DNA of 64,000 nucleotides from Cryobacterium suzukii (GTDB lineage: Bacteria; Actinomycetota; Actinomycetes; Actinomycetales; Microbacteriaceae): assembly GCF_004403185.1 (NCBI RefSeq), contig NZ_SOHJ01000014.1, positions 62,001-126,000 on the forward strand, read 5' to 3'. This document shows positions 5,669 through 56,598 of the stretch, piece by piece (the stretch's first letter is position 1; each line of letters begins with the position of its first letter). The position numbers and the translations under genes are program-made. The notes below the pieces were generated by a model that made no database searches, was not told the DNA's origin, and worked only from the letters and a program-made list of their open reading frames with translations.

Positions 5669-6372
5669 GCGTGCATCTGGTCGGCGGCGGGGGAGATCCC
5701 GCGCACGACGCCGAAATCTTCGAAACGTTCCTGTCCGAGATCACGGCTCAGGCCTCCGGGGCCGGCCGCGACGAACCGATTGTCGCGATAATTACCGTGG
5801 GTCCCGGCAGCGCCCACGCCGAGGAACTGGCCGAGTCGCTCGGCGACAGCGTGCAGACCCGCCGCACCGTTCTCGCTCCCGGCGATACCGCCGCCCTCAC
5901 GGCGATTTCCGCGGTCGACGGGATCATTATCGGCGGCGGGGTGACGCCCGACTATCTCGCCGCAGTGCTGCCGATTGCCGGCGAGATTCGTCGTCAGGTG
6001 TCCAGTGGCGTGCCCTACCTCGGCTTCTCGGCCGGCGCCATGATCGCGGCCGAACGTGCCCTCGTCGGCGGCTGGCGTATCGGCGGCGTCGAGGTCACGC
6101 CGGAACACGTCTCGGAGGGCCTCGATGAAATCACCCTGGCCCAGGGGATCGGCCTGCTCGACGTCACGGTCGACGTGCACGCTGCCCAGTCCGGCAGCCT
6201 GTCCCGACTGATCGCGGCGACCGAGGCCGGCCTGATCGACGGCGGCCTGGCCATCGACGAAAATACCGTGCTCGTGGTCGGCGAGGGCGCGCTCGGTGTG
6301 CTCGGCGCCGGCAGCGTCTGGCGGGTCAGTCAGGCCGACGGTGGCGTGCTCGTGAGCACCATCGGCGCCTGA
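5665..6372 (+). CDS. S51-family (peptidase E/cyanophycinase-like) protein
   Basis: Class I glutamine-amidotransferase-like fold with a serine nucleophile. [11 protein letters not shown] (Ser122) matches the nucleophile elbow of peptidase E and cyanophycinase, and [12 protein letters not shown] (residues 87-98) precedes it as in that family. It has 235 residues, the size of peptidase E. The natural substrate (alpha-aspartyl dipeptides or other) is unknown. It starts at a GTG that overlaps the stop of the phosphoribosyltransferase gene, and ung begins 7 bp after its stop. Confidence 0.7.
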
Positions 6373-6379
6373 CCGACTC

Positions 6380-7102
6380 GTGAACCTCGATGCGCTCGCA
6401 GCGACCGGGCAGATCGACCCGGGCTGGGCGAGGGCGCTCGCTCCCGTGGCCGACGACCTGGCCCGGGTGGGCGATTTTCTGGCGAGCGAACGGGCGGCCG
6501 GCCATACGGTGTTGCCAGCGCCCGAGCACCTGCTGCGCGCTTTTCGGCAACCGTTCGATGCTGTGCGGGTGCTCATCGTCGGCCAGGACCCCTACCCCAC
6601 GCCGGGGCATCCGATCGGTTTGGCCTTCGCCGTAAACGCCGACGTGCGGCCGGTGCCGCGCAGCCTTGGCAACATCTACACCGAGCTCGAGGCCGATTTG
6701 GGCTTGCCGCGGCCCGAGCACGGCAACCTCTCGGCGTGGTCCGATCAGGGGGTATTGCTGCTCAACCGCGTGCTCAGCGTCCGGGCCGGCGCAGCCGGAT
6801 CGCATCGCCGCCGCGGCTGGGAAAGCGTGACCGACCAGGCGATCCGTGCACTGGTGCTGCGGCAGCATCCGCTCGTCGCCATTTTGTGGGGCAAGGATGC
6901 CGGCGCGCTTCGGCCGCTGCTCGGCGACACCCCCGTCATTGAATCGGCGCACCCGAGCCCCCTGTCCGCCCGTCGCGGCTTTTTCGGCTCCCGGCCGTTC
7001 AGCGGCGCCAACCGGCTGCTCACCGTGCAGGGGGCGGCACCGGTGCAGTGGGCTCTTCCGGTAATCTGGAATCAACCAGAAAGGGGAGTGCCCGGTGCTT
7101 GA
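6380..7102 (+). CDS. ung: Uracil-DNA glycosylase, family 1
   Basis: Removes uracil from DNA in base-excision repair. The catalytic water-activating motif GQDPYP is at residues 68-73 (Asp70) and the DNA-intercalation motif HPSPLS at 191-196. The 240-residue length fits Ung. It starts at GTG 6380. The 3' end overlaps the start of the GNAT gene by 8 bp. Confidence 0.96.
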
Positions 7103-7673
7103 GGAAGAATACGAGACTCGTCGTCGGCTGCCCCGCCACCTGCGGCCGGACGTGGCTCCCGAGACGCCATTCGAATACACGATGCGCGAGGTTCGAGCAA
7201 CGGATCTGCCGCACATTCGCGAGATCTACAACTATTACGTCGCCAACAGCACCGTGACCTTTGACGAAGACGCGATGACGCTCGCCGAGTGGCGCGACAA
7301 GTTCTACTACCTGAACAAGCAGGGTATGCCGTTCATCGTTGCCGTCTCTCCGGCCGGTCAGATTCTCGGTTATGCCCTGGTCAGCCCGTGGAAGCAGAAG
7401 AAGGCCTTCCGATTCACGGTGGAGAATTCGATCTACCTCGGCGCGGCGTCGACGGGTAAAGGTCTCGGCCGCGAGCTGCTGGGCGAGCTGATCAAACGGT
7501 CTAAAGCGGCCGGTCTGAAGGAGATCATCGCCGTCATCGCCGACCAGGGAGCGGATGCCTCGATCAAGCTGCACCGCGATTTCGGCTTCGACGAGATCGG
7601 TCGCATGGGCAAGGTCGGGTTCAAGTTCGAGCGCTGGCTCGGCACGATTCTGCTGCAAAAAAGCCTGAAGTAG
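7095..7673 (+). CDS. GNAT-family N-acetyltransferase
   Basis: Acetyl-CoA-dependent acetyltransferase of 192 residues, resembling the phosphinothricin/methionine-sulfoximine acetyltransferase group: [15 protein letters not shown] near the N-terminus, the acetyl-CoA loop GKGLGREL at 121-128, then [16 protein letters not shown] 7095 lies inside the end of ung, with AAGGGGAG upstream. About 25 residues precede the usual domain start. The acceptor substrate is unknown. Confidence 0.8.
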
Positions 7674-44143: not shown

Positions 44144-46285
44144 CTACGAGCGCAGGGCCAGGGTGAACGGAAGTACCGCCGATACGCCGTGCCGGCGCAG
44201 CACGCGCGCAGCCACGGTCAGGGTCCACCGGCTGTCGGCGTGGTCGTCGATCAGCAAAATGGGGCGGCCGGTGAACGGGATGAGTGCCTCAGTCAGCTCG
44301 GGGCCGACATCGAAGCGGTCCCACACGCTGGACAGCCGGTAGGCGCTGTTGCCGCCCGGCTCCCCGCTGGGGCCGCCGTTCGCCCAGTCCAGGGTGCCGA
44401 GCAGTGGCAACCGACCGACGTCTGCCAACGATCGTGCCACCGAATCGATGATGAGTGGATGCCGCCGCGACGGCATCGAGACGATGGCTGCCGGACGCTC
44501 TGCCCACCCCCACTCGGCGAGCACGCGCACACAGGCGGCCAGCATGGCCGGCGAGGCTACGGCATCCGCTGCCTGGGCGTCGAACAGATCACGCAGCGGA
44601 CCGCCCCAGCCGAGGTCGGTCAGGCGGGCCAGCGCGCGGCCGGGCTCGGCGCGTTCGCCGAGCGCAATTTTGCCGGTGGCCGCGACGCCGAGGCTGCTCA
44701 TGCCGGTCGGCCACTGCGCACGCACATCGATGGCGACGCCGACGCGATCGAGCGATTGCGTGGCCGTCGCCACGGCTCCCTCTGCCACATCACTCGGATA
44801 CCAGGCACCCCGGCAATTGTCACAGCGCCCGCACGCCACCGCAGTCTCATCGTCGAGGGCGCGCTGCAGAAACTCCATGCGGCATCCACTGGTGGTTTCA
44901 AATTCGAGCATGGCCTGCTGCTCACCGAGCCGGGCAGCCGCGATGCGTTCGTAACGCTCCCCGTCGTAGACCCAGGGCCGCCCGGTGGACTGCCAGCCGC
45001 CCTTGACCCGGTGCACCGCGCCGTCGACGTCGAGCACCTTGAGCAGCAGCTCAAGCGGAGTGCGCTTGAGGTCGACCCTGGCTTCGAGCGCCGGTGTGGA
45101 CAGGGGGACGCCAGCGGCTTCGAGCTCGCCAATCACGGCGAGGGCCTTGGCCTGATTGGGCATTGAGGCGGTGGCGAAATAGTGCCAGATGGCCTCATCT
45201 TCGGCGCCGGGCAGCAGCAATACGTCGGCCGAGGCGGTGGCACGGCCGGCGCGACCGACCTGCTGGTAGTAGGCAACGGGGGAGGACGGCGCGCCCAGAT
45301 GCAGCACAAACCCGAGGTCTGGTTTGTCGAATCCCATTCCGAGGGCGCTCGTGGCGATGAGCGCTTTGACCTGGTTGGTCTTGAGCAACTCCTCGGATTC
45401 TTCGCGTTCGGCGGTGTCGGTCTGGCCGGTGTAGGCGCGCACCGCGTGACCCGCCTCGCGCAGCAGCCGAGCGGTGTCTTCGGCGGCCGCCACGGTGAGG
45501 GTGTAGATGATGCCGCTGCCGGGCAGTTCGGCGAGGTGGCTGAGCAGCCAGGCCAGGCGGGCGCGCGAATCGGGCAGGCGCAGCACACCCAGCCGCAGCG
45601 ATGAGCGGGCGAGCGGGCCACGAATGGTGACGACTTCAGCGGTTCCGGCGGTGGCGCCATCGAAGCCGGTGGCGACCATGCCCACCTGCTCCGCGACATC
45701 CTGCACGACGCGGCTATTGGCCGTGGCCGTGGTGGCGAGCACGGGCACGCCGGGCGGCATCTGGGCGATCAGGTCGCGCAGGCGGCGGTAGTCCGGGCGA
45801 AAATCGTGGCCCCAATCGGAGATGCAGTGCGCCTCATCGACCACGAGCAGGCCGACCCGAGAGATCAAGGCGGGCAGCTGCTCATCGCGGAAAGACGGGT
45901 TGTTCAATCGTTCGGGCGACACCAGCAGCACGTCGACCTCGTCGGCGTCGAGCTTCTGAAGCACGTCGCTCCACTCGTGCGCGTTCGACGAGTTGATCGA
46001 CACCGCCCGCACCCCCGCCCGGGCCGCGGCGGCGACCTGATCACGCATGAGGGCGAGCAGCGGCGAGACCAGGATGGTCGGGCCCGCGCCTTGGCGTCGC
46101 AGCAGCAGGGTCGCCACAAAGTACACGGCCGATTTGCCCCACCCGGTGCGCTGCACGACGAGCGCGCGGCGGCGGTGGTCGACCAGGGTTTCGATGGCCT
46201 CGAACTGTCCGTCATGCCAGGAGGCGTCGGCTCGCCCCACGAGGGGGCGCAGAATGGCCAGAGCGGATGCGCGGGTGTCGGTCAT
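44144..46285 (-). CDS. recQ: RecQ-family DNA helicase with phosphoribosyltransferase-like tail
   Basis: 713-residue 3'-5' helicase. Motif I reads QRTGWGKSAVYF, motif II VVDEAHCISDWGHDFRPDY, and motif VI QQVGRAGRA. The RecQ zinc-binding region has CRMEF and then CGRCDNC. The last 40 residues contain RPILLIDDHADSRWTLTVAA, which resembles the PRPP loop of type I phosphoribosyltransferases, as in ComF-like proteins, but with Arg-Trp where Gly-x would be expected. This tail replaces the usual HRDC domain. Single gene, divergent from a membrane protein gene. Confidence 0.88.
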   Translation of the reverse strand: MTDTRASALAILRPLVGRADASWHDGQFEAIETLVDHRRRALVVQRTGWGKSAVYFVATLLLRRQGAGPTILVSPLLALMRDQVAAAARAGVRAVSINSSNAHEWSDVLQKLDADEVDVLLVSPERLNNPSFRDEQLPALISRVGLLVVDEAHCISDWGHDFRPDYRRLRDLIAQMPPGVPVLATTATANSRVVQDVAEQVGMVATGFDGATAGTAEVVTIRGPLARSSLRLGVLRLPDSRARLAWLLSHLAELPGSGIIYTLTVAAAEDTARLLREAGHAVRAYTGQTDTAEREESEELLKTNQVKALIATSALGMGFDKPDLGFVLHLGAPSSPVAYYQQVGRAGRATASADVLLLPGAEDEAIWHYFATASMPNQAKALAVIGELEAAGVPLSTPALEARVDLKRTPLELLLKVLDVDGAVHRVKGGWQSTGRPWVYDGERYERIAAARLGEQQAMLEFETTSGCRMEFLQRALDDETAVACGRCDNCRGAWYPSDVAEGAVATATQSLDRVGVAIDVRAQWPTGMSSLGVAATGKIALGERAEPGRALARLTDLGWGGPLRDLFDAQAADAVASPAMLAACVRVLAEWGWAERPAAIVSMPSRRHPLIIDSVARSLADVGRLPLLGTLDWANGGPSGEPGGNSAYRLSSVWDRFDVGPELTEALIPFTGRPILLIDDHADSRWTLTVAARVLRRHGVSAVLPFTLALRS

Positions 46286-52295: not shown

Positions 52296-52322
52296 GTGAT
52301 CAATCGATACCCAGCACGATGA
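52296..52322 (+). CDS. Leaderless eight-codon upstream ORF
   Basis: GTG-ATC-AAT-CGA-TAC-CCA-GCA-CGA-TGA, peptide MINRYPAR. The stop codon TGA overlaps the ATG of the sugar transporter (ATGA). The transporter start has no recognisable ribosome site, so ribosomes that load on the 5' GTG could reinitiate on it. The peptide itself may matter only as a device for coupling. Confidence 0.45.
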   Translation: MINRYPAR

Positions 52323-53779
52323 ACGCGTCCACGAAGCCGACTGACCTCGCACCCGGATCGAACAGAAAAGTCATCGCGCTGGCCGTCGCCGGTGCTCTCG
52401 GCGGATTTCTATTCGGGTTCGACTCCTCGGTTATTAACGGGGCCGTCAACGCGGTTCAGGAGGAATTCGGGCTGAACGCTACCCTCACCGGTTTCGCGGT
52501 GGCCTGCGCGCTGCTCGGCGCGGCAGCCGGTGCGTTCTTCGGGGGCCGCTTCGCCGACCGCTACGGGCGCATTCCCATGATGGTGCTCGGCGGCGTGGTG
52601 TTTCTGGTCAGCTCGATCGGCTCAGGTTTCGCGTTCGGCGTCGTTGACCTGATCATCTGGCGAATCATCGGCGGGCTCGGTATCGGTCTCGCATCTGTCG
52701 TCGCACCGGCTTATATCGCTGAAATTTCACCGCGGCACATGCGCGGACGACTCGGCTCCCTCCAACAGCTTGCGATCACGCTCGGTATCTTCACCGCGCT
52801 ACTCTCCGACGCCGTTTTCGCCGAGAGTGCGGGCGGAGCCGCCGGCGAGTTCTGGTTCGGACTGGAAGCCTGGCGCTGGATGTTCCTCGCCGGCGCCGTG
52901 CCGGCCGTCGTCTATGGCGGCATCGCATTCATCCTGCCGGAATCCCCGCGTTTCCTCATTCTCAAAGACAAAGAAGCGGATGCCCGCGCCGTGTTCACCC
53001 GCCTCTGGCCGAGCGGGGACGTCGACCGGGAGATTCGCGACATGCGTCGCTCGATCGAGGTCGATGCGCGGTCGCAGAAGTCTGGGTCTCTGCGAGGCAG
53101 TACCTTCGGGCTCAAGCCCATTGTCTGGGTCGGCATCATTTTGTCGGTGTTCCAGCAGTTCGTCGGTATCAACGTGATCTTCTACTACTCGACCACCCTG
53201 TGGAGCGCGGTGGGCTTCGAGGAATCGAACTCGCTGACCATCTCGGTGATCACCTCGGTGACCAACATTCTGGTCACCCTCGTCGCAATCGCCCTGGTCG
53301 ACCGGATCGGCCGGCGGCCGATCCTATTGGCCGGCTCCATCGGCATGACGGTGTCGCTGGCAACGATGGCGGCGGCGTTCAGCCAGTCGGTCACGGTCGA
53401 CGGCGCGCTCAGCCTGCCGGGCGCCTGGGCGCCGATCGCGCTCGTTGCCGCAAACCTGTTCGTGATCTCCTTCGGAGCCTCGTGGGGACCGGTGGTGTGG
53501 GTGCTCCTCGGGGAGATGTTCCCCAACTCGATTCGCGCCAAGGCCCTCGGGCTGGCCGCAGCCGCCCAATGGATCGCAAACTTCTTGATCACGGTCAGCT
53601 TTCCGCCGATGGCGGATGCTTCTCTGCCCATCACCTACGCACTGTACGCCCTGTTCGCCGGACTGTCCTTCTGGTTCGTGCTGCGTAAGGTACCCGAAAC
53701 CAATGGGATGTCGCTGGAGGAAGCAGACACTCTGTTACCCCCGAAGAACTCGGCGCGGAAGGCCACCTCCGCCAGCTAG
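52319..53779 (+). CDS. Sugar-porter MFS transporter
   Basis: 486-residue, 12-helix transporter of the sugar porter family (proton-sugar symport likely). Signatures: GGFLFGFDSSVINGA in helix 1, GRFADRYGRIPMM, the APAYIAEISPRHMRGRL motif after helix 4, and QQFVGINVIFYYS in helix 7; VPETNGMSLEE closes the last helix. The closest known pattern is the xylose/arabinose/glucose group, but the sugar is not assignable. It follows an eight-codon ORF whose stop overlaps its ATG. Confidence 0.9.
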   Translation: MNASTKPTDLAPGSNRKVIALAVAGALGGFLFGFDSSVINGAVNAVQEEFGLNATLTGFAVACALLGAAAGAFFGGRFADRYGRIPMMVLGGVVFLVSSIGSGFAFGVVDLIIWRIIGGLGIGLASVVAPAYIAEISPRHMRGRLGSLQQLAITLGIFTALLSDAVFAESAGGAAGEFWFGLEAWRWMFLAGAVPAVVYGGIAFILPESPRFLILKDKEADARAVFTRLWPSGDVDREIRDMRRSIEVDARSQKSGSLRGSTFGLKPIVWVGIILSVFQQFVGINVIFYYSTTLWSAVGFEESNSLTISVITSVTNILVTLVAIALVDRIGRRPILLAGSIGMTVSLATMAAAFSQSVTVDGALSLPGAWAPIALVAANLFVISFGASWGPVVWVLLGEMFPNSIRAKALGLAAAAQWIANFLITVSFPPMADASLPITYALYALFAGLSFWFVLRKVPETNGMSLEEADTLLPPKNSARKATSAS

Positions 53780-53782
53780 GCA

Positions 53783-53802
53783 TTTAAGCACTCGTACTTA
53801 AA
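53783..53802. repeat. Imperfect palindrome after the transporter gene
   Basis: TTTAAGCAC and GTACTTAAA pair with one mismatch around TC. It lies 3 bp after the transporter stop. It could be a weak terminator or an operator for the next gene. Confidence 0.35.
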
Positions 53803-53857
53803 CAGTGCGCGGCGATACCCACAAGCCCCCGAACGGGCTGTCGCGATGCGATCGGTT

Positions 53858-53866
53858 TGTGGATAA
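53858..53866 (-). promoter_or_regulatory. Isolated DnaA-box-like 9-mer
   Basis: Perfect TTATCCACA on the minus strand, 31 bp before the BRCT-protein start codon. Only one copy is present, so it is not an origin. A role in control of the next gene is speculative. Confidence 0.25.
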
Positions 53867-53896
53867 CTTCACAGGACAAGATTGTGGAGTGTGACC

Positions 53897-55135
53897 ATGC
53901 CCGAACGTGGATACGCCGTTATAAGTTTGAAAACTACTGGACTGTTCCCGTATCAACGGGATCGGGTCGTCGAGGTCGCAGTGGTGCACCTCGACGAGGG
54001 TGGTCACATTGCTGCGCGCTGGGAAACCGTTGTGAACCCCGGAAGCAACGCCGGGGACGTGGCGATTCACGGCGTCAGCACGGCCGAACTCCTGCGCGCG
54101 CCGACGTTCGAGCAGATTGCACCGCGCCTGGTCGACCTGCTTCGTGGCCGAGTATTGGTGACGCACAACGCCCAGTTCGTCACCGGATTTCTCATGCGCG
54201 AGTTCGAGCTGATTGGTTATGCTCCCGGCCGTGGACTTGAGGCCGTCTGCACCATGCACCTGGCCCGCACCTATCTGCCGGGGGCTGGTCGGCTGCTGGT
54301 CGATTGTTGTGCTGCCTACGACATCGAAATCGAGCCCGGACCGGGCGCCCTGGTGCAGGCCGTGGCCTGTGCGAGCCTTCTGGCCGCCTACGTGCACGGT
54401 TCGCCCAGCGTCGCACCGTGGATCAACGCTCTCGACCGCGCCGAGCGATCCGCCTGGCCGAGACTCGCCGCTGCCACCGACGCAGAGTGGGTGCAGCGCG
54501 ACCCGTCAATACCTGAGGAGACGGAGGCGACGCCGAGCTTCCTGGCCCGGGCGGCCGTGAAACTCCCCGACTACACCGGCCCCGAGGAACACCTCGACTA
54601 CCTGGCCCTGCTTGATTTGTGCCTGCTCGATCATGTTCTCTCGGCTCAGGAAACACGTGAACTTCGGGTCCTGTCCGAATTTTGCGGCATCAGTGCCACG
54701 GATTGCACGGCGCTGCATCGCCGGTACTTTGAGGACCTCGTGCGGGTTGCCTGGTCGGGCGAAGCTCTCAGCGTCGCGGATTCCGCTGATCTGATCGCGG
54801 TTGCCCGCATGCTCGATATCGCTCCAGACGTCGTTGCCGCAGCACTGGCGGCACCCGCTTCGGTGGTACAGCTACCGATCATTTCGATCGACACCGTGCT
54901 GCTGGAGCAGGGCGACATAGTCGTGCTCACCGGTGACATGGCGCGTGCCCGCTCCGACTGGGGCCGGGAACTGGTCGCACGGGGGTTGTCCCTGGGTACG
55001 GCGGTCACCCTGCGCACTCGGCTTCTCGTTGCCGCCGACCCCGCTTCGATCACCGGCAAGACCGGCAAGGCGCGGGACTACGGCATTCCGATCGTCTCCG
55101 AATTCGGCCTGCGCTCTCTCATCGGAGTGCGCTGA
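53897..55135 (+). CDS. Catalytically dead DnaQ-like exonuclease with BRCT-like C-terminus
   Basis: 412-residue protein with the overall plan of the actinobacterial DnaQ-type exonuclease-BRCT family. Motif I, normally DxETTGL, reads SLKTTGL (Ser10, Lys12). Motif II, normally HNxxFD, reads HNAQFV (Val95). Motif III, normally HxxLxDA, reads PGALVQA (Pro149, Gln154). All five DEDDh positions are thus replaced while the surrounding fold is kept. The C-terminal 75 residues (GDIVVLTGDMARARSDW, RLLVAADPASITGKTGKA) look like a BRCT domain. The reading frame is long and intact, so it is probably a functional non-enzyme. GGAG precedes ATG 53897. Confidence 0.8.
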   Translation: MPERGYAVISLKTTGLFPYQRDRVVEVAVVHLDEGGHIAARWETVVNPGSNAGDVAIHGVSTAELLRAPTFEQIAPRLVDLLRGRVLVTHNAQFVTGFLMREFELIGYAPGRGLEAVCTMHLARTYLPGAGRLLVDCCAAYDIEIEPGPGALVQAVACASLLAAYVHGSPSVAPWINALDRAERSAWPRLAAATDAEWVQRDPSIPEETEATPSFLARAAVKLPDYTGPEEHLDYLALLDLCLLDHVLSAQETRELRVLSEFCGISATDCTALHRRYFEDLVRVAWSGEALSVADSADLIAVARMLDIAPDVVAAALAAPASVVQLPIISIDTVLLEQGDIVVLTGDMARARSDWGRELVARGLSLGTAVTLRTRLLVAADPASITGKTGKARDYGIPIVSEFGLRSLIGVR

Positions 55136-55270: not shown

Positions 55271-55657
55271 CTAACGCCGGCGCGGGGCGACCTTCTCGGC
55301 GCACATCATGCAGAGGTCGGCGGCCGGTTTGATCTCCAGTCGGCCCTCGGGGATGCGCTCACCGCAGTGTACGCACAGGCCGAAGGTGCCGTCGACGATG
55401 CGCTGCAGAGCCCGATCGATGGCCGCGAGCTCTTCGACGGCCTCACCCTGGAACCTCGACATGCGTGACCATTCGGTGCGCAGCGAGGAGGCCTCAGCGT
55501 CGTGGGCGCCATCGGCCGAGCCGTCGCTGCGGGAACTCTGCACGCGGGCATTGGTGTCGGCGAGGCGCTGGGACTCGACGGTCAGTTCGCGGCGGCGTTC
55601 AGCGAGAGCGGTCTCGAAGGCGTGCAGTTGTGCGGGGTCAAAGGGAGAAACGGTCAT
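55271..55657 (-). CDS. TraR/DksA-type zinc finger protein
   Basis: 128-residue protein: an N-terminal helical hairpin (QLHAFETALAERRRELTVES onward) and a C-terminal four-Cys zinc finger, CVHCGER and DLCMMC. Family members bind RNA polymerase's secondary channel; actinobacterial ones include RbpA-independent DksA-like factors. The tip of the coiled coil lacks an obvious DxxDxA motif. ATG 55657 is used; an in-frame GTG at 55672 is possible. It begins a few bases after the RNase HI stop and is co-transcribed. The 135 bp that follow, to 55136, show no clear gene. Confidence 0.8.
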   Translation of the reverse strand: MTVSPFDPAQLHAFETALAERRRELTVESQRLADTNARVQSSRSDGSADGAHDAEASSLRTEWSRMSRFQGEAVEELAAIDRALQRIVDGTFGLCVHCGERIPEGRLEIKPAADLCMMCAEKVAPRRR

Positions 55658-55675
55658 GTTCCATGGTCCCACGGC

Positions 55676-56482
55676 TCAGATCTGGCCGCGCAGGTACTCC
55701 TCGATCGTCACTCCGCGGGCTGCAGCGCGCTGCACCAGACGCCGGTGTTCCTCGGCGCTGAGCGAGAGCGTCACCCGGTGCCGCTCGCTCGTGCCGCGCA
55801 TCGCGTCGGGGCCGTGCGGGTCGGTGAGCTCGCGGTGGTCCTCGCCGATATCGTCACCAATATCGTCACCGAGGTCGTCGAACGAGAACAGCTCGTCGTG
55901 TGGGTAGGCTGTGGCCCGCTCGGTGACCCGGCCAGTGGGAAGTGTGGGCGAGCCAGAGGCACTCTGGCCGACGGATACCGCAACTCGCGCCCGCACCACT
56001 GGTTCGGCTACCGCAGAAGCCCCGGCAAAACCCGGCCCGGCCGGTGCCGATCGGCCACGCTGAAACGCCTCGGCCGCGCCGCGCGCACGCTCATCGGCAG
56101 CCTCGTTGAGCGGATGCCCGACGTGACCCTTGACCCACTCGAACCTGTATCGGCGCCCGGCGATGGCTTCATCGATCTCCTTCAGCAGGTCGAGGTTCAT
56201 GACCGGTTTGCCATCGCCCTTGCGCCAGCCCTTGGCCTTCCAGCCCTTCATCCACTTGGTGACCGAGTTGATCACGTACTGGCTGTCGCACAGCACCAAA
56301 AGATCGTCGTCGATGTGCGCGGTGGCGCGAAATAGCTCGAGCACGGCCTTCAACTCGCCCTGATTGTTCGTGGCGTGCTTCCAGCCACCAGCGGCCCAGC
56401 AGGAATCGTCGACGTACCAGGCCCAGCCGGCTGGTCCGGGGTTTCCGAGGGCAGAACCGTCGGCGGCGGCGGTGATCGTCAT
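55676..56482 (-). CDS. rnhA: Ribonuclease HI with C-terminal ribbon-helix-helix-like extension
   Basis: Degrades RNA in RNA-DNA hybrids. 268 residues. The catalytic acids are Asp8 (AADGSALGNPGPAGW), Glu43 (NNQGELKAVL), Asp66 (LCDSQYVIN) and Asp130 (NEAADERARG). The RNase domain ends near 150. A disordered linker with repeated DDIG acidic units follows (about 195-222). Residues 234-268 (RHRVTLSLSAEEHRRLV ... GVTIEEYLRGQI) look like a CopG/Arc-type DNA-binding segment. I chose ATG 56482, which has GAAAGG upstream. Confidence 0.87.
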   Translation of the reverse strand: MTITAAADGSALGNPGPAGWAWYVDDSCWAAGGWKHATNNQGELKAVLELFRATAHIDDDLLVLCDSQYVINSVTKWMKGWKAKGWRKGDGKPVMNLDLLKEIDEAIAGRRYRFEWVKGHVGHPLNEAADERARGAAEAFQRGRSAPAGPGFAGASAVAEPVVRARVAVSVGQSASGSPTLPTGRVTERATAYPHDELFSFDDLGDDIGDDIGEDHRELTDPHGPDAMRGTSERHRVTLSLSAEEHRRLVQRAAARGVTIEEYLRGQI

Positions 56483-56598
56483 ATGCGGGCCTTTCAAACA
56501 GCGGATGCGCGGGCGCAGGTCGTCTAATTCTGCCACCCTCGACCTGCGCTGCCCGAATCACCGGACCCCAGAGCGGAATGTGTCCGTCAGGTAACGCC

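Follow-up and report, generated by a model that had tools for sequence, protein, structure and literature searches.

Catalytically dead domains of the DnaQ fold are already known in animals and inside polymerases. The DEDD-fold domain of metazoan Maelstrom is described as lacking the catalytic residues, inactive as a nuclease and able to bind single-stranded RNA (PMC4408791). In Actinobacteria, the 3'-5' exonuclease domain of the PolA2/APEX polymerases is described as dead, and PolB2 is also named for its dead DnaQ-like domain (PMC12926913). An epsilon-type subunit of Pol III with a BRCT domain is named among the usual bacterial BRCT proteins (PMC10386641). The isolated BRCT domain of RFC1 is reported to be a tight DNA binder (Kd about 10 nM) with a preference for the 5'-phosphate end; once it is docked on RFC, the phosphate matters little (PMC9293009).

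We analysed a stretch of 64,000 nucleotides from Cryobacterium suzukii (hereafter the window), in which one gene encodes a protein that shares the DnaQ fold with the exonucleases of Pol III epsilon and PolC but lacks their catalytic residues. The window protein scored below the cut-offs of the epsilon models TIGR01406 (dnaQ_proteo; 66.7 against 222.7 bits) and NF004316 (60.1 against 196 bits). Its best NCBIfam match was the DEDDh exonuclease PRK06063 (141.7 bits, best stretch residues 3-189), whose catalytic residues are missing in the window protein; the score was under the curated cut-off of 389 bits, as were those of two active relatives (L064 and L071). A full-length match was found to PDC-S48, a candidate defence family of PADLOC (residues 1-410 to 1-406 of 411, E 2.9e-147, 489 bits), but the intact nuclease site of that family was absent. 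PDC stands for phage defence candidate; a search by terms did not find PDC in two PADLOC papers. All six relatives tested matched PDC-S48 over their length, four of them with an intact motif. Since the degenerate copies L057 and L059 also matched, the profile does not require the nuclease site.

Maelstrom, which kept its DEDD-fold domain after catalytic loss, is the nearest precedent for how the window protein may work. It is, however, described as an animal piRNA protein with a structural zinc site (PMC4408791). The PolA2/APEX proteins likewise keep a dead DnaQ-like domain in Actinobacteria but are described as polymerases (PMC12926913).

Catalytic positions, domains and start region

Family members were collected from 21 loci of named genomes and from two genome sets, 57 from the genus and 299 from the family. 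In the latter set, 64 genomes had a match at 1e-30; the alignment took in part of these matches. It consisted of the window protein and 111 unique family rows, one of which was the window's own gene again. Letters at all five catalytic positions (10, 12, 95, 149 and 154) were present in 106 of the 110 rows that reached 200 aa. The active-type motif was found in 80 of these, as DEDHD (68) or DEEHD (12), some of the 80 being interrupted genes such as the paralogue in the window's own genome. The remaining 26 rows were 22 degenerate copies forming one Cryobacterium clade and four scattered broken copies (DEDHN, EEQPN, DVEHD and DVDDN). Outside the clade, catalytic motifs were separately broken in the Microbacteriaceae copies L143, L145, L157 and L158; for two of these (in G187 and G108), the same contig also carried an intact copy at a distance of about 24-25 kb.

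At the five positions, the window protein has S, K, V, P and Q instead of D, E, D or E, H and D (Table 1). A preliminary description made from the sequence had proposed that all five DEDDh residues were lost, and the positions it gave are indeed the catalytic columns of the family alignment. Misalignment of the catalytic site was rejected, as the columns lined up and no canonical residue was found at nearby aligned positions. Of the three newly conserved acidic positions in the exonuclease domain (3, 104 and 115), none belonged to a catalytic motif, and together they do not resemble a relocated site. The window protein is very probably not a canonical exonuclease, and two-metal hydrolysis of DNA would not be expected of it. 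Its putative empty metal site is read from the alignment, not from the AlphaFold model.

Table 1. Positions in the window of the dead gene, its parts and its neighbours
Feature	Position	Strand	Basis or remark
Sugar transporter, neighbour of the dead gene	52319-53779		
Conserved 5' leader, including GGAG 53886-53889	53818..53896	+	Conservation extends to silent positions, first ~40 codons
Ribosome site GGAG	53886-53889	+	7 nt ahead of ATG
CDS, catalytically dead DEDDh-TerB-BRCT protein, 412 aa + stop	53897..55135	+	Translated frame; 18 open copies in 17 genomes
Exonuclease-fold domain of DnaQ-like (RNase_T) type with replaced catalytic residues, residues 1-165	53897..54391	+	Pfam RNase_T, PolC fold match, dN/dS 0.081
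Codon 10 AGT, Ser (active family Asp)	53924..53926	+	Ser or Cys across 18 copies
Codon 12 AAA, Lys (active family Glu)	53930..53932	+	Lys 17/18, Asn 1/18
Codon 95 GTC, Val (active family Asp or Glu)	54179..54181	+	Val 18/18
Codon 149, Pro (active family His)	54341..54343	+	Pro 17/18, Ser 1/18
Codon 154, Gln (active family Asp)	54356..54358	+	Gln 18/18; no Asp in any of the 22 clade members
TerB-like helical middle domain, residues 215-325	54539..54871	+	Weak TerB matches of relatives, helical in model; loosest of the three domains, dN/dS 0.22
C-terminal BRCT domain, LigA/RFC1 type, residues 333-412	54893..55132	+	Sequence and fold matches, dN/dS 0.074
DksA-type / RNase H pair, other neighbour	55271-56536		

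Pfam RNase_T matched residues 13-145 of the window protein (1.3e-13, 52.3 bits, cut-off 24), and the LigA model dnlj matched residues 337-402 weakly (8.3e-4). Two of four relatives gave weak TerB matches (L064, 0.078; L071, 0.017), which the window protein did not, and three of the four gave BRCT matches, one of them above the cut-off. These matches suggested the architecture exonuclease - TerB-like - BRCT. With a BRCT profile, chains of LigA were matched from 6.3e-08, and RFC1 was also matched by sequence. A scan of the window protein for a clamp motif of simple form gave no match.

The AlphaFold model was of moderate confidence, with a mean pLDDT of 58 (34-60 in the exonuclease part and mostly 66-81 in the BRCT), and the mean fell to 36 when the model was built from the single sequence alone. 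The exonuclease part, a low-confidence part of the model, matched the PolC exonuclease 2p1j_A (Z 10.3, rmsd 2.6, 109 aligned) and epsilon 1j53 (Z 8.5). For the BRCT part, the matches were 9a6z_B (DNLJ, an integrative model; Z 11.7, rmsd 2.1, 75 aligned), RFC1 7u1a_A (Z 10.9, rmsd 2.3, 76 aligned) and the phosphopeptide-binding Rad4 (Z 10.7), which was tied with LigA and RFC1. BRCT rows filled the VIA-align list, which barely covered other folds for the TerB-like part.

In ten aligned BRCT domains, position 345 of the Thr-Gly motif was Thr in eight, Ser in one and Ala in one, and Gly346 was found in all ten. The phosphate pocket reads T-K-K in active rows and T-L-R or T-M-R in the dead copies, so the grip of the BRCT may differ. 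The median net charge of the BRCT domain was +2.5 (active, +2), and that of the dead exonuclease domain was slightly acidic, -3 against -7 in active Cryobacterium copies. The acidity of the exonuclease domain is no argument for strong DNA binding by that domain.

The 412-codon frame with its ribosome site and intact BRCT-like end, as first described, was confirmed. The 18 named loci nearest to the window protein were all from Cryobacterium. Between copies, the codon difference per 20 codons was 0.14-0.21 in the first ~40 codons and 0.28-0.45 from codon 41 on. The segment 53818-54000 folded better than its shuffles (z -2.96), and a control element may overlap the gene start there. A candidate DnaA box, TGTGGATAA at 53858-53866 upstream of the gene, was present in some copies only and is not claimed. 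A simple scan of 53700-54020 detected neither a sigma-70 promoter nor a terminator near the start.

A clade of disarmed copies under purifying selection

The dead motif (S/C, K/N, V, P/S, Q) was found in 18 copies from 17 of the 57 genomes of the genus. All 18 were open, and the others had 77-91% identity to the window protein. Cryobacterium sp. Y50 had two copies in one genome (L009 and L012); at residues about 190-220 of L012, the fast-evolving linker was expanded by a repeated GTALV-like motif. In the tree, the 18 copies with full loss and a sister subclade of four formed the clade of 22 degenerate copies with a branch support of 100/100, and this clade joined an active Cryobacterium group (G005, G042 and G030, the gene of G030 being interrupted) at 98/83.

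The sister subclade was only partly disarmed. Its motifs were EQEQQ (G033), EQDRH (G026), HEGAQ (G047) and DEAHK (G023), so that D10, E12 and H149 were retained in G023, E12 in G047 and D95 in G026, and G033 had E95. The last Asp of DEDDh enzymes, position 154 here, is an essential metal ligand. As it was missing in all 22 clade members, its loss may have been the earliest, the other positions then changing along different paths; parallel loss is also possible.

We calculated pairwise dN/dS (NG86) for the 18 dead copies (153 pairs), taking medians from pairs with dS of 0.05-1.2. The median was 0.153 overall, 0.081 for the exonuclease domain, 0.354 for the linker, 0.220 for the TerB-like part and 0.074 for the BRCT, and the highest value among the 153 pairs was 0.275. 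The corresponding medians of nine active paralogues (36 pairs) were 0.124, 0.116, 0.360, 0.134 and 0.048. Therefore, the dead exonuclease domain was constrained at least as much as the living one, while the TerB-like part was looser and the BRCT slightly looser than in the active copies.

Conservation was also compared position by position. Among 47 exonuclease positions conserved in at least 90% of the 80 active rows, 35 were kept in all 18 dead copies, including the motifs TTG, HNA.F and CT. Six were lost in all 18, namely D10, E12, H149 and D154 of the catalytic set and their neighbours A148 and T158; A89 was retained in one dead copy, and five more varied in one or two copies. Position 95 was not among the 47 because active copies use D or E there. 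This result indicated that the loss was centred on the catalytic site.

The preliminary description had read the gene as a pseudo-enzyme and not as a decaying gene, to be supported if a clade shared the substitutions with dN/dS well below 1. Such a clade was found in the 18 copies, and the reading of a dead, clade-wide, constrained protein with an intact BRCT stood. The description had also suggested that the protein could be a scaffold or competitor at replication forks or nicks. The narrow form of this competitor idea, in which the dead copy restrains a resident active copy, was weakened: the exonuclease dN/dS was 0.087 in dead copies whose genome has an intact active copy (7 copies) and 0.080 where the active copy was lost (10 copies, excluding the window genome, G000). 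The constraint on the dead copy was thus independent of the resident active copy.

Genomic site and active paralogues

In the window, the dead gene lies among ordinary genes, with a sugar transporter on one side and a DksA-type / RNase H pair on the other (Table 1). The RNase H gene adjoined 20 of the 21 other clade copies; the exception, the second copy of Y50 (L009), kept only the tail of the transporter. The transporter was not adjacent in L011, L013, L017 and L059. In three of five non-carrier genomes examined, the transporter and the RNase H gene were adjacent with nothing between them, and in the other two (G012 and G022) the RNase H gene was not seen in the stretch available. When 40 loci were compared, two of them dead, the neighbourhood of the dead gene was absent from all 38 others, which were active or remnant copies at 36 distinct loci. 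Since nearly all dead copies occupied a common site whose flanking genes are adjacent in three of the non-carriers, the gene was most likely inserted once, in an ancestor of the carrier species. The transporter of the four sister-subclade carriers had 86-89% identity to that of the window and the transporter of every non-carrier 82% or less, but by a GTPase marker the non-carriers G022, G012 and G040 (96-97%) were as near as or nearer than the carriers G047 and G023 (97 and 95%). Because the two markers disagree, the gene may have been lost in some lineages, or transferred.

Around the dead gene of the window, no PADLOC defence model matched any of the ten larger ORFs searched within about 6-7 kb. 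At 7.6 kb from the gene, a RecQ-like ORF of 713 aa (44144-46285, minus strand) gave a full-length match to PADLOC PsyrT (7.8e-208); it may be an ordinary RecQ. The search for viral relatives gave 53 pattern matches in viral contigs, none of which was confirmed.

Chosen large ORFs around 11 active-type loci were also searched with PADLOC, at thresholds of 1e-5 or 1e-20, and a strong defence match was found near six of the loci. A type IV restriction enzyme model matched near L060, L061, L068 and L073 (E 4.2e-225 or better; the family gene of L073 is interrupted), AbiU and a DNA methyltransferase were found near L062, and PDC-S41 near L065. Partial helicase-type or MkoA matches only were found near L064, L074 and L076, and no defence match in the one ORF examined at each of L069 and L071. 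On the dead side, this contrast in defence neighbours is drawn from one locus and the shared gene order.

The active paralogue was often decayed in carriers. It was intact in seven of the 17 (G006, G011, G014, G015, G019, G050 and G051) and lost or broken in ten: a remnant in seven (G048, G037, G038, G027, G034, G029 and G020), not found in two (G035 and G046) and interrupted in one, the window genome. There, the paralogue L067 (G000:C9:309396-322595, gene at about 5998-7200, minus strand) kept DEDHD and an intact exonuclease part, and an internal TAG after about 250 codons cut off the BRCT; a decayed tandem remnant lay beside it. Among the genomes of the sister subclade, G023 and G026 had an intact active copy, and G033 and G047 had none. 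An intact active copy was also present in 13 of 36 non-carrier genomes.

Possible roles of the dead protein

The loss in the dead domain is centred on the catalytic site, and the copies form a monophyletic group at a shared site under purifying selection. We consider it rather likely that the window protein is a paralogue of a DEDDh-TerB-BRCT nuclease that was domesticated after losing catalysis, and that it would bind DNA ends, or partners located there, instead of cutting. The probable reason for the replaced cutting site is that binding of DNA or partners is all that the protein still does. With Lys12 in the place of a metal ligand, the retained pocket residues (T13-T14-G15, H90-N91, F94 and F98) might hold a partner, or the 3' end of a nucleic acid, and leave it uncut. 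At a nick, gap or end, the BRCT could grip the side with the 5'-phosphate in the manner of RFC1's BRCT, and the protein would then shield or mark ends and hand them to repair enzymes. Binding to DNA ends, proposed from analogy, is the less certain part of this reading.

It is hardly credible that the gene is a recent pseudogene, open by chance. Active copies of the same family do often decay in the genus, but the 18 open orthologues at 77-91% identity and the low dN/dS (0.15, with a maximum of 0.275 in 153 pairs) ruled out decay or a sequencing artefact. Retained enzymatic function, by altered chemistry or with the metals placed differently, would be consistent with the slow evolution of the exonuclease-like domain along with the BRCT and with the freezing of most other conserved residues, and on sequence grounds some residual activity through another arrangement of metals is conceivable. 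All five positions were changed, however, three of them to residues that do not normally bind metal (Val, Pro and Lys), and newly conserved acidic residues formed no apparent cluster. The four sister members were each altered differently, as expected once catalysis is no longer selected, and we regard continued catalysis as very unlikely. We give somewhat more credit, though still little, to a protein-binding adaptor, in which the BRCT would be a phosphopeptide module and the dead domain a platform, with no role for DNA ends. BRCT domains are described as binding phosphopeptides as well as DNA (PMC10386641), the dead domain is acidic overall, and the Thr-Gly motif is largely kept. By sequence, the nearest BRCT domains nevertheless belong to two proteins that work on DNA, DNA ligase and RFC1; these lead by fold too, but there the tie with Rad4 blunts the distinction.

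The active paralogues bear on a further explanation, in which PDC-S48-type defence nucleases are gained and lost on defence islands and the dead paralogue guards the cell against them, either through mixed inactive complexes or by covering the self DNA ends open to their attack. The active-type copies are at other loci, six of the 11 examined with a strong defence match nearby, and all 18 dead copies are open although seven of the 17 carriers keep an intact active copy; such a guard must persist even when no nuclease is present. On the other hand, mixed complexes are less probable at an identity of only about 48% between the window protein and the active query, an intact active copy occurs without a dead one in 13 non-carrier genomes, and the equal constraint with and without a resident active copy disfavours the strict form, a partner of that copy. 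We therefore hold this explanation to be doubtful. Equally doubtful is the history that would go with it, in which a PDC-S48 nuclease of a defence island was duplicated among ordinary genes and disarmed stepwise into a vertically inherited guard that covers self ends or poisons incoming active PDC-S48. If it were true, the cell could gain and lose PDC-S48 defence genes without self-damage, and in the dead copy the weapon itself would have given rise to an orphan-immunity protein.

Our literature searches found no report on the dead Cryobacterium clade or on a disarmed stand-alone bacterial DEDDh-TerB-BRCT protein, which is no proof of absence. What appears to be new here is a stand-alone bacterial nuclease that was disarmed and became fixed in a clade where active paralogues with a defence link also occur. 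Annotation of the dead copies as an exonuclease or a defence gene is probably wrong. Partly disarmed relatives still exist, and intact copies are present in the same genus. The pair of dead and active proteins makes it testable what this exonuclease fold is kept for without cutting, and also whether the host tames defence nucleases.
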